From NCBI RefSeq assembly GCF_008629695.1, contig NZ_VWSH01000002.1, positions 465,410-529,409 of the forward strand: a stretch of DNA of 64,000 bases, in the 5' to 3' direction. Position numbers and translations under genes: made by a program. The notes beneath the pieces were generated by a model. That model ran no database searches and was not told the origin of the DNA. It saw only the letters and a program-made list of their open reading frames with translations. Each line of letters begins with the position of its first letter. Position 1 is the stretch's first letter. Positions 22,830 to 25,914 of this stretch are shown here, in pieces. The DNA comes from Taibaiella lutea (GTDB taxonomy: Bacteria; Bacteroidota; Bacteroidia; Chitinophagales; Chitinophagaceae).

Positions 22830-23333
22830 ATGGCAAACATTATGCAAAACCGCATTGACGCGGTAATGGCTCCCGATCAGATAAATCAGATCAAAGCGTA
22901 TTTTCAATCTATCATCAACGCATTGCCCGAAAGCGGGAACCTTACGCTCAACGACGACGAAAGGGGCAGCCTTACATCCCTCGATGTGGACAACAAGATC
23001 TTTGTGGAAGACGCCGTAAACGAAATACGCAACAACGGCCAAAACATTATACCTCCTTTTATCAGTGCAGAGCAATTGCAGAACGACCTGACGCTTTTTG
23101 AACAAATGGATGAATTGCGCAGCATACAGAACAATGTTCAGGAATGTATTGAAGCTATACTGCGCATAGCTGCCACAGAAGCTTACGGCGTAAGCAATGC
23201 GGCTTACCAGTTCTTCAAATCGGCTGCTGAGGCAGGCATTCCCAATGCACAAAGCAGCTACGATAAATTAAAGCAGCGTTATAAGCCTAAGGGCGGTAAG
23301 GGTAACGAAGAAAAACCTTTAGAAAATCAATAA
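22830..23333 (+). CDS. Helical protein of unknown function
   Basis: Not recognised. A 167-residue, Asn/Gln/Ala-rich, predicted all-helical protein without signal peptide or membrane segment. It starts MANIMQNRIDAVMAPDQINQI, contains a central helix pair with LQNDLTLFEQMDELRSIQNN, and ends in a basic then acidic tail (KPKGGKGNEEKPLENQ). The composition suggests a soluble cytosolic oligomer. Downstream lies a block of eleven 22-bp tandem repeats, then a small HTH protein gene on the same strand; common transcription is possible but unproven. Confidence 0.6.
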   Translation: MANIMQNRIDAVMAPDQINQIKAYFQSIINALPESGNLTLNDDERGSLTSLDVDNKIFVEDAVNEIRNNGQNIIPPFISAEQLQNDLTLFEQMDELRSIQNNVQECIEAILRIAATEAYGVSNAAYQFFKSAAEAGIPNAQSSYDKLKQRYKPKGGKGNEEKPLENQ

Positions 23334-23398: not shown

Positions 23399-23641
23399 AG
23401 CTGTAAAACACGGTTATTATGACTATGAAACACGGCTATCATGACTATGAAACACGGCTATCATGACTATGAAACACGGTTATTATGACTATGAAACACG
23501 GCTATCATGACTATGAAACACGGTTATTATGACTGTGAAACACGACTATCATGACTGTGAAACACGGCTATCATGACTGTGAAACACGGCTATCATGACT
23601 GTGAAACACGACTATCATGACTGTGAAACAGCGGTATTATA
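23399..23641. repeat. 22-bp tandem repeat array, 11 units
   Basis: Head-to-tail 22-base units of the form GACTATGAAACACGG plus CTATCAT, starting at 23399, 23421, 23443 and every 22 bases to 23619; the last is degenerate. Variants are phased: units 1-5 carry CTATG, units 6-10 CTGTG; the ends alternate between CTATCAT and TTATTAT. There are no spacers, so this is not CRISPR. It occupies most of the 369-base gap 23334-23702; a 22-base period of nearly two helical turns would suit side-by-side protein binding. Confidence 0.95.
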
Positions 23642-23702
23642 GTAAAACGTTGCGATTATAATTAAGAAATAGATTTTCAAGACATCTTATTAAAATGCAT
23701 GT

Positions 23703-24083
23703 ATGGTAAACAGGTCACCTAAATATGTAATGAATCAGGTTGAAAAGCAATTTCCTTCAACCGGCCACATATTGTCAGAGGTTATTAAAAAAAGGAAAAT
23801 AAATATAGCTGCGTTGGCAAGAATATTGCAAAGGAGATATAGTACCGTAAGGTTTTATTTTAAAAACGACAGTATCCAGACTGCTATCCTGTGGGAGATC
23901 AGCCTGATATTAAAGCACAATTTCTTTGCCGATATAGCAGCACAGTTGCCTCCGGATTTTGCCGGTGGTACAAAAAGCGAAGTGCTGGCTGCGAGAGATG
24001 CGGAAATTGCGGAACTGAAACAAACCGTAGCCAGGCTGCAGGGCGAAAAGGACTTGCTGATGCAGGTAATGAAAAATAAGTAA
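23703..24083 (+). CDS. Small HTH and coiled-coil protein
   Basis: A 126-residue protein with a predicted helix-turn-helix at about 24-75 (LSEVIKKRKINIAALARIL, RYSTVRFYFKND, ILWEISLILKHNFFADIA), similar in layout to Xre-like regulators found in Bacteroidota accessory DNA. A linker and a C-terminal coiled coil follow (AARDAEIAELKQTVARLQG, to about 124) that should dimerise it. Placed between the 22-bp repeat array and two structured RNA candidates, it could bind the repeats or regulate the RNAs; this is inference. Confidence 0.65.
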   Translation: MVNRSPKYVMNQVEKQFPSTGHILSEVIKKRKINIAALARILQRRYSTVRFYFKNDSIQTAILWEISLILKHNFFADIAAQLPPDFAGGTKSEVLAARDAEIAELKQTVARLQGEKDLLMQVMKNK

Positions 24084-24120
24084 CAAAAGATTGAAACATG
24101 TTGGCCTGTAATGCATTAAA

Positions 24121-24250
24121 GCCCTTGTGCTGTATCCTGACGGCTGGGTTAGACATAGTGTACCTGCTTTGCTTTTGTCTACAGGTAAATACTCATTGAA
24201 GTAAAGGTACATACAGGGGAGTGGCGGCTGCCAGAGTGCCGCCATTTTTA
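24121..24250 (+). ncRNA. Candidate structured RNA, copy A
   Basis: Copy A of a two-copy element. Helix P1 pairs 24122-24128 (CCCTTGT) with 24213-24219 (ACAGGGG). A conserved 29-base strand (24129-24157) leads into P2, 24158-24164 (GTGTACC) with 24206-24212 (GGTACAT), enclosing a variable loop. P3 pairs 24222-24228 with 24238-24244 around the conserved loop TGCCAGAGT and is followed by TTTTT, so it can act as its own terminator. Compared with copy B, two P2 base pairs change in a compensatory way. No Rfam family was recognised. Confidence 0.65.
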
Positions 24251-24332
24251 TAAAAGAAATTACAAGCGGATGAATAAATGCCGGTTAAAAATATATTTTT
24301 TCGATTGCCAGCCTACAGCAATTCATGCATAA

Positions 24333-24460
24333 TCCCTTGTGCTGCATCCTGGCGGCTGGGTTAGACAAAGTGCGCCTGTTTTTATTTCTGCTGTAGGGTT
24401 CTGTTTGTAGGATAAAAGGCGCATACAGGGGCGGGTGGCTGCCAGAGTGCCGCGTGGTTT
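24333..24460 (+). ncRNA. Candidate structured RNA, copy B
   Basis: Copy B, 212 bases downstream of copy A in the same orientation. P1: 24334-24340 with 24425-24431. The 29-base conserved strand differs from copy A at three positions. P2: 24370-24376 (GTGCGCC) with 24418-24424 (GGCGCAT), extended by TTTTAT/ATAAAA (24380-24385 with 24412-24417). P3: 24435-24439 with 24449-24453, same TGCCAGAGT loop, with a C-G to U-G change. It lacks copy A's T-run; a strong separate terminator lies at 24483-24512. Confidence 0.65.
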
Positions 24461-24482
24461 TGCCTGCAATTATTTGCAGACA

Positions 24483-24512
24483 AAAACGGCCCCGGTATTC
24501 CGGGGCCGTTTT
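24483..24512. terminator. Bidirectional intrinsic terminator
   Basis: Perfect 13-bp GC-rich stem (24483-24495 with 24500-24512), TATT loop, A and T tracts at the ends. It separates RNA copy B from the convergent PNGase F-like gene. Confidence 0.93.
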
Positions 24513-24552
24513 CTTATCGGATATTCAATTGAATATATTGGAAAGCTGCAGG

Positions 24553-25914
24553 TTAGTTTTTTACGAAAGATTTTGTAACCATAATATTTCCTTCCAGTTG
24601 AATCTTCACATAATAAACGCCATATTGCAGGGCTGTAATATCAATTGTTTTTGAATTGCCGGCCCATACCTGCTGGCCAACCATGTTGAACATTATTACT
24701 TTTTCCACTTTTTGTTCCGTACGTATATTAATCTCCTGTTTAGCAGGGTTAGGATACAATGTTGTATTTGCTGCAATTTTATTGATATCATTGACACCGA
24801 CAGGCGCTATATATTCTGTTTTACCCTGTACGTAAAGCGATAAGGGGAAATTACCTTGCCCACCTACAAATTTGGCATCGGGTACGGCTATTTTAAACGT
24901 GTGTGTACCCGGTGCAAGATTGCCGACATTAATCACGCGAATTGGAATATAAGCGCCGGGGCACCAGTTACTGAACGATTGCCATTGGGCATCTGACCTT
25001 GGAGCACTTCCGTAAATACCATTTCCCTGCGTATTATAAATCCTGTATGGCTCACAGGTCGGGAAACCCGGTTTGTATTGCAATACCTGTGTGCCGTCAA
25101 AATACACAAAATGGTTGCGCCTGTTATATTCTTCACCACCGCTGTTAGCGCCATGATTGGAAGTAATCAGGTAGATACTGGTATTATAACTACTGTCAGA
25201 AAGATTGAACGTAACAGTCTTAACGGTAGTAGTCAATGAATCGGTTGCATTGGCCTGGTAATTATTAAATGACTTTTGATTGTAAATAGGTATGATGATA
25301 TTATTATTTTCTCTCGGGGCGCTTGCATCTGTTATCAAATCAAGCGTGCCGTAAAAAACATCGCTTCTTCCGCTGCAACCCGGAATTTCATTATTGGCAG
25401 CATAAGGCACACCAAAAATTTCAAGCTCCATCCATATATCATAAATGTCTGTAATCTTATTTTCTTTTAAGATAGATGCTACATTATTGATTTCATAATT
25501 ATAGGGAACCGTATCAGGCTGCAGGTTCTTATTCATAAATGGCGTAATAAACCTGGCTATCTCAAGGCGTTTTACTGCCGTGTCGCCGGTAGTGTAGGTA
25601 GTGTCTCCTTTCGGCACAAATGCAAGGCTTACGTGTCCGCCTCTGTCATAATTATCGCAGGAGGCTTTTACAAGCACTTTCATAGAAAGTGAATTGCCTA
25701 TTTGACCTAAAACAGCTTCCGAAAGTTTTTTAGAATAAAGTGATGTTTTGAGCCTTACTGTGCCCGGAGGAGCCGGGGTAGTTGCAGTGCTAAGACCGGC
25801 ATAACCATCATAAAACAACGCAGTATCATAGATTCTGATAGTTGTTTGCGCATTTGTCTTGTGTGAAAAGGCAGCTATAGCCGCAAGGGAAAGAAGTGCA
25901 AATATTTTTTTCAT
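24553..25914 (-). CDS. Secreted PNGase F-like protein with T9SS sorting domain
   Basis: A 453-residue exported protein resembling peptide-N-glycosidase F, the enzyme that removes N-linked glycans from glycoproteins. Signal peptide 1-22 (ending KTNAQ). The C-terminal half of the catalytic part has LITSNHGANSGGEEYNRRNH, VYFDGTQV and SNWCPGAYIPI, matching the PNGase F second domain. Residues about 385-453 form a type A T9SS sorting domain (LYPNPAKQEINI, VYYVKIQLEGN). Activity on glycans is inferred from homology. It is a single gene. Confidence 0.8.
   Translation of the reverse strand: MKKIFALLSLAAIAAFSHKTNAQTTIRIYDTALFYDGYAGLSTATTPAPPGTVRLKTSLYSKKLSEAVLGQIGNSLSMKVLVKASCDNYDRGGHVSLAFVPKGDTTYTTGDTAVKRLEIARFITPFMNKNLQPDTVPYNYEINNVASILKENKITDIYDIWMELEIFGVPYAANNEIPGCSGRSDVFYGTLDLITDASAPRENNNIIIPIYNQKSFNNYQANATDSLTTTVKTVTFNLSDSSYNTSIYLITSNHGANSGGEEYNRRNHFVYFDGTQVLQYKPGFPTCEPYRIYNTQGNGIYGSAPRSDAQWQSFSNWCPGAYIPIRVINVGNLAPGTHTFKIAVPDAKFVGGQGNFPLSLYVQGKTEYIAPVGVNDINKIAANTTLYPNPAKQEINIRTEQKVEKVIMFNMVGQQVWAGNSKTIDITALQYGVYYVKIQLEGNIMVTKSFVKN

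Follow-up and report, generated by a model that had tools for sequence, protein, structure and literature searches.

A tandem pair of structured RNA elements in Taibaiella lutea, probably of phage origin, with a covarying three-way junction

Two copies of an element of about 125 nt, A and B, lie side by side on the forward strand of the Taibaiella lutea DNA that we analysed (64,000 nucleotides; hereafter the window). Comparison with homologues gives good support to an RNA family with a covarying three-way junction and a 3′ hairpin. We favor, with moderate confidence, the view that A and B are tandem copies of a phage RNA that stands alone, probably acts in trans and binds a partner through its conserved core. 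The element was otherwise found in phages; A and B were probably acquired from a phage and then duplicated. We infer that the RNA is transcribed and has a function. The features discussed are collected in Table 1.

Table 1. Positions of the two RNA copies, their helices and neighbouring features in the window
Feature	Positions	Strand	Details	Basis
Small HTH gene	23703-24083	+	126 aa; copy A follows 38 nt after its stop codon; outside the RNA family	
RNA copy A, whole	24122-24249	+	includes T-run 24245-24249	
A, P1 5′ strand	24122-24126	+	CCCUU; partner 24215-24219	
A, P1a 5′ strand	24129-24133	+	GCUGU; partner 24140-24144	RNAalifold, pair counts
A, P1a 3′ strand	24140-24144	+	ACGGC	RNAalifold, pair counts
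A, conserved junction strand	24145-24157	+	UGGGUUAGACAUA	
A, P2 5′ strand	24158-24165	+	GUGUACCU; partner 24205-24212; variable apical part 39 nt	
A, P2 3′ strand	24205-24212	+		
A, P1 3′ strand	24215-24219	+	AGGGG	
A, 3′ hairpin P4	24223-24243	+	GGCGGC stem, bulged U, GC/GU pairs, loop CAGA	
RNA copy B, whole	24334-24453	+		
B, P1 5′ strand	24334-24338	+	partner 24427-24431	
B, P1a 5′ strand	24341-24345	+	GCUGC; partner 24352-24356	
B, P2 5′ strand	24370-24377	+	GUGCGCCU; partner 24417-24424	
B, 3′ hairpin P4	24434-24453	+		
GC-rich hairpin and short T-run after copy B	24486-24513	+	possible transcript end shared with the convergent gene	by eye; scan listed no terminator

Without its T-run, copy A spans 24122-24243. 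A and B were 75.6% identical over 127 aligned columns (24119-24250 against 24331-24460; E 2e-21). The initial annotation had described two tandem copies with near-identical strands and compensatory changes, and its base-level observations were accurate. Of the bases between its P1 and P2, 26 of 29 agree, and TGCCAGAGT is identical in A and B. The pairs U-A (24161-24209) and A-U (24162-24208) of copy A become C-G and G-C in copy B, at precisely 24373-24421 and 24374-24420. The C-G to U-G change in its P3 and the T-run of copy A (TTTTT) are also present. Its fold needed some revision. Five pairs of its P1 are general across the family and the remaining ones are not. In its P3, here P4, the 9-nt loop above the stem is better resolved into a bulged U and two pairs topped by a four-base loop. 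The hairpin P1a had been overlooked.

Covariance models for the homologue searches were built from A and B (R1), from three sequences (R2) and from five sequences (R3). R1 gave matches at E ≤ 0.1 in 12 of 394 family genomes, and we accepted those in the T. lutea genome itself and in genome G302 (record L008; 45.1 bits, E 5e-8). The element of G302 also lies in IMG/VR contig 3300024981_000247 (L025), member P of the family, and a pattern scan also found P in the metagenome-assembled genome 'Bacteroidetes bacterium 43-16' (MKTB01000025.1). R2, used without a sequence pattern, found member Q in IMG/VR contig 2523533536_000003 (30.4 bits, E 3e-4 in 805 kb). The set searched held 82 loci, mainly yopX neighbourhoods, and 79 of these were listed yopX loci outside P's contig. 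A pattern built from A, B, P and Q matched five viral contigs: those of P and Q, L220, L221 and IMG/VR contig 2700988704_000001. The last contains member R, which then scored 40.5 bits (E 6.5e-8). Since R was selected by the pattern, its match in P1 and the junction strand is not independent evidence. By construction, all five score high with R3 (85-128 bits). The five sequences represent only four independent lineages, and among P, Q and R a host group is named for P alone.

Many weaker candidates were rejected. The other 10 of the 12 genomes with R1 matches scored 21-27 bits; in five, the alignment was partial or the helices were broken, and the remaining five were dropped by score alone. 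L220 and L221 matched the same pattern as R and had no model score at E 2. Ten of 13 pattern matches were discarded after reading of their flanks; R1 on the 394 family genomes was silent there, and the reversed pattern gave 6 matches as a control. The same fate befell all five viral matches of one search (9-14 bits), two of three in the viral search that returned L025, seven of eight matches in one further scan and five of six genome-contig matches in another, the sixth being G302's own contig. G656/L056 (24.6 bits) was judged non-homologous, as were G1294/L226 (22.6 bits), which covered part of the model, and L085/L199, a single contig that reached 17.9 bits.

Judging from these searches, the family is rare or fast-diverging. 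R1, R2 and R3 found nothing convincing beyond the T. lutea genome and G302 in sets of 394, 396, 296 and 395 genomes, which overlap in part and were searched with Infernal's stricter filters. No homologue was found by blastn in 58 relatives, and a blastn comparison of the elements with phages and plasmids gave just a tRNA match and two weak matches. The phage collection held no near match of the 20 kb around Q, and 79 further listed yopX loci outside Q's, partly on the same contigs, gave no convincing match. No third copy was found in the 4.27-Mb T. lutea genome, where blastn with A returned A, B and one 18-base match (E 0.93). The earlier suggestion of a dispersed element fits to the extent that barely related phages carry the RNA.

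To what extent does the element behave as an RNA? Free folding of the individual sequences gave z values of -2.2 for A, -0.6 for B (with a different minimum-energy structure), 0.2 for P and -0.8 for Q. Folding of single copies is therefore indecisive, and the RNA status was decided by comparison of homologues. The common fold is a three-way junction of P1, P1a and P2 with the conserved strand GGCUGGSUNARACANAG, followed by the 3′ hairpin P4. At the three-sequence stage, double compensatory changes were seen at 8 of 21 pairs. In the model-based alignment of the five sequences (A4), 95.0% of the 101 cells of the 21 pairs were paired, against 76.2% after shuffling, and both sides had changed in a compensatory manner at 11 of the 21 pairs (shuffled mean 5.6; 0 of 500 as high). 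Sliding A4 by 1-3 columns reduced pairing to 35-55%.

Since A4 leans toward structure, we rechecked these results on a structure-blind MAFFT alignment (A5). RNAalifold applied to A5 proposed P1, P1a and P4 unaided, together with a misplaced P2. Taken together, P1, P1a and P4 were 91.7% paired in A5 (2 of 500 shuffles as high) and 6 of their 17 pairs were doubly changed (4 of 500 shuffles as high); further pair types did not rise above the shuffles (133 of 500). Because P2 is misaligned in A5, its pairing was tested directly, using the 8 nt after ACANA and the 8 nt located 0-3 nt before the P1 3′ strand. All 8 pairs formed in A, B and P, and 7 of 8 in Q and R. Among 20,000 shuffles, this was matched by 28 (A), 54 (B), 24 (P), 853 (Q) and 500 (R). 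The initial annotation had proposed a structured, probably functional RNA with compensatory changes, and had suggested a search with a covariance model and Infernal; the homologues P, Q and R exist and covary strongly. On this comparative evidence, the element is best read as a conserved structured noncoding RNA. Chance duplication of an RNA under no constraint, with convergence accounting for the similarity elsewhere, would fit the rarity of the element, but we regard it as highly improbable given the double changes in A4 and the near-fixed place of the P2 pairing.

The consensus of P1 is [C/G/U]CCUU with AGGG[G/A]; Q has GCCU with GGGC, a weak helix with four pairs when aligned by hand and 3 of 5 in the A4 columns. 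P1a follows GCYKN, 6-7 nt, NMGGC (3 pairs in P), and the junction strand UGGSUNARACANA. P2 has 8 pairs, almost no sequence conservation and a variable tip of 38-48 nt. P4 consists of a 5-6-pair stem, a bulged U, RC/GU pairs and the loop CAGA (A and B), GAUA (Q) or GAGA (R); member P departs from this with a plain 6-pair stem. When the consensus helices were imposed and the remainder completed freely, the resulting fold was 1.0-3.7 kcal/mol above the minimum of each sequence. A GGC-GCC pseudoknot between the junction and the P4 loop was discarded, being broken by eye in Q and R. In a comparison with E. coli 16S and 23S rRNA, no site was common to the five elements among the best pairings listed.

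The U-G pair of P1 is present in 5 of 5 sequences in A4 and in 3 of 5 in A5. Together with the G-U of P4, it favors RNA over DNA. This bears on the idea that A and B belong to a DNA-level mobile or recombination element (attC-like, a transposon end or the end encoding a TnpB guide RNA) that mimics an RNA. Integron attC sites carry paired RYYYAAC and GTTRRRY boxes at their ends. The elements reside in mobile genomes, and the junction strands of A, B and R contain GTTRRRY. However, those of P and Q lack this box, and RYYYAAC was found in 0 of 5 elements, including 80 nt before and 60 nt after each. Like TnpB guide RNAs, the family is compact and structured, linked to mobile DNA and located downstream of a gene; PMC11061315 describes the guide of IS607 TnpB as a RAGATH-18-derived reRNA. 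In contrast to such guides, the conserved part here leads into a T-run in A, P and Q, and no guide was seen. TnpB (PF07282) was found in 0 of 5 sources (the T. lutea genome, G302 and the three phage records), whereas 6 of 14 control genomes had it over the cut-off. With these results, the G-U wobbles and the lack of dispersed copies, we consider a DNA element quite unlikely.

The genomic surroundings of the members differ markedly. The element follows the nearest co-directional stop codon by 38 nt (A), 15 nt (P), 58 nt (Q) or 25 nt (R), and the proteins encoded immediately upstream show no similarity among them. P and Q directly precede yopX (PF09643 in both), with 31 and 26 nt, respectively, to the start codon; A, B and R do not. 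R has a tRNA-Trp-like sequence just behind it and is located in the late region of its phage, on the downstream side of the large terminase gene. The region of P contains a PIF1-like helicase and, by eye, RecT- and SSB-like reading frames. At E 1e-5, the stretches around P, Q and R have in common only yopX (P and Q, 31%) and one 53-aa match (Q and R). No phage genes were seen around A and B. Since the upstream proteins are unrelated and the surroundings of P, Q and R have almost nothing else in common, the element appears to be a free-standing unit. As a separate observation, two gene ends in a P-type phage region (L046 6831-6858 and 7167-7193) are near-identical, encode TAPAPD[TN]R and form a GC-rich motif.

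P4 is followed by five T in A, seven in P and four in Q, and by no T-run directly behind it in B and R. A terminator scan of 23600-24600 listed no terminator, P4 plus TTTTT of copy A included. On the forward strand 3′ of copy B, the list of open reading frames holds only a 66-aa frame, which runs across the GC-rich hairpin of Table 1. The minus strand (24553-25914) holds a gene convergent with the RNA copies, whose product is PNGase F-like (PF09113, PF09112, PF18962) and secreted, with a Por secretion tail. For none of the five elements did a scan for Bacteroidota-type promoters do better than shuffles. A σ70 scan gave 4 sites where 2.4 were expected, one of which (24305-24333, 10/12) is directly before B.

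Two of the three phage lineages have the element in front of yopX, and the main rival to our reading is therefore a cis-acting yopX leader, that is, a riboswitch or attenuator with P1, P1a and P2 as the sensor, P4 and the T-run as the terminator, and the other copies displaced. The phages that carry P and Q have little else in common, and the T-runs after P4 in P, Q and A would suit a terminator. However, A, B and R are not placed before yopX, and behind B the forward strand offers nothing but the 66-aa frame. Furthermore, the 79 listed yopX loci besides P's gave Q alone, and the 79 besides Q's gave none that was convincing. Finally, the loop bases of P4 are conserved, which a plain terminator would not need. 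We consider a yopX leader rather unlikely.

The tRNA-Trp(CCA)-like sequence behind R begins 3-4 nt after P4 (L222 1151-1222, minus strand). It scored 25.4 bits with the Rfam tRNA-Sec model (cut-off 47) and is 83.6% identical over 68 bases to a 'tRNA-OTHER' of Bacillus phage Mater; compared with Mater, its anticodon loop is apparently 2 nt short (by eye). ARAGORN with default settings called no tRNA behind R or the other copies. The annotation of the relative in Mater calls it a tRNA pseudogene; with its threshold relaxed, ARAGORN finds a tRNA-Trp (CCA) there. The proximity of this sequence to P4 raises the question of a self-cleaving or RNA-processing ribozyme, which might release either the tRNA-Trp-like RNA behind R or the upstream mRNA's 3′ end. 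A three-way junction with a long conserved strand would be compatible with this activity. No ribozyme model of Rfam was listed for A/B or R at E 10, or for Q and P at E 5, and no tRNA follows the other copies by ARAGORN at its default settings, all of which makes a ribozyme unlikely. A ribozyme and a DNA element are both less likely than a yopX leader.

The initial annotation had further suggested that the RNA might be the partner of the adjacent HTH protein. In this case, A and B would belong to the HTH and tandem-array locus, with the HTH protein binding RNA or forming a pair of the type III toxin-antitoxin kind with it. The gene is a co-directional neighbour, 38 nt apart. It has no Pfam match above the cut-off and no PHROG match. 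Its own genome contains two paralogous loci of HTH gene plus array, both without the RNA, which leaves the partnership unsupported. In addition, at E 1e-3 none of the 20-kb pieces of phage DNA surrounding P, Q and R yielded a relative of the HTH protein; a divergent HTH reading frame about 510 nt before Q (L088 5129-5335) has no detectable similarity to that of the window. We therefore regard an HTH partnership as very unlikely.

The HTH loci have features of their own. Just upstream of the HTH gene, all three loci contain a tandem repeat array (window 23406-23630; L005 1901-2327; L006 1942-2199) with periods of 22 (×10), 21 and 41/82 bp. The repeat sequences differ and the spacing is near two or four helical turns, so that the arrays look like cooperative binding arrays of an HTH family. 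A 167-aa protein of unknown family (window 22830-23333) has a paralogue, 58% identical, beyond the array at the second locus (L005 2468-2941); hence, the order ORF167-array-HTH occurs twice. Facing its paralogous HTH gene in convergent orientation, L005 also contains a SymE-type toxin reading frame (1205-1438; PF08845, E 2e-8). Three congeners have aat and the CTP-protease gene but lack the HTH, PNGase F-like and 167-aa genes near aat, within the 11-11.5 kb examined; the segment around A and B is thus variable.

The RNA had been called unrecognised, and this agrees with cmscan against Rfam 15, where 0 families reached the gathering score anywhere in the window; what was listed below that score looks like chance. 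The L222, L088 and L008 stretches gave sub-threshold matches only. One of these deserves mention. RAGATH-36 (RF03104), whose gathering score is 70, matched Q with only 11.9 bits, and was not listed for A, B and R at E 10 or for P at E 5. Its model has a similar length (128 positions), and its 3′ hairpin (bulged U, aC/Gu, GAAA) resembles P4 of Q (U, AC/GU, GAUA) and of R (U, GC/GU, GAGA), a short motif that may reflect convergence. In contrast, the first hairpin stands outside the main stem in the drawn RAGATH-36 model and inside P1 here. RAGATH-36 was not found over the cut-off in G000, G302 or G951-953, with two sub-threshold matches elsewhere in the T. lutea genome, and a literature search found no paper on it.

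Other likenesses concern the kind of RNA or its layout. The coat-protein operator hairpin of phages MS2/R17 consists of a lower stem, one bulge on the 5′ side, two pairs and a four-base loop. P4 resembles it in layout only, and the bulged base is U here and A in MS2/R17. GOLLD and ROOL are, like the present family, phage-borne noncoding RNAs of unknown function, and R adjoins a tRNA-like sequence. PMC12286853 describes the two as RNAs of phages and prophages near tRNA islands and gives a length of more than 800 nt for many GOLLD RNAs. The GOLLD and ROOL models of Rfam were not listed for the stretches that carry our family.

We return to our preferred reading, a stand-alone RNA that acts in trans. 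It is suggested by the lack of a fixed neighbour, by loop and junction bases conserved further than a terminator would require, and by a P2 arm free of sequence constraint. According to this model, the RNA would be made within the transcript of the gene just upstream, and P4 with the T-run would end it in A, P and Q. The junction strand and P4 would bind a protein or other partner in trans, and the variable P2 arm would serve as a spacer. As for its role, it is conceivable, with a modest chance in our estimate, that this small junction RNA, with its conserved single strand and a 3′ hairpin like a protein operator, represents a new class of phage RNA for takeover or counter-defence. Phages would carry it as a movable 'moron', placed before yopX or within a late operon next to a tRNA-like gene. 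Captured by the host chromosome and duplicated in tandem, it may work against phage superinfection, serving as a decoy for the phage's partner.

Among the papers listed in literature searches on structured phage RNAs and on RNA at yopX, none showed such a family. One published survey reportedly contains 104 candidate RNAs. Rfam 15 gave no match to the family at gathering score, and orphan phage RNAs as a kind are already known (GOLLD, ROOL). According to PMC8040213, HMP2 RNA models number in the thousands, and an earlier, unnamed prediction of the family may be among them. Infernal searches for further members can start from the consensus and the five sequences. Its distinct neighbourhoods, namely yopX, a tRNA-like gene and a tandem chromosomal pair, are starting points for tests of its function.
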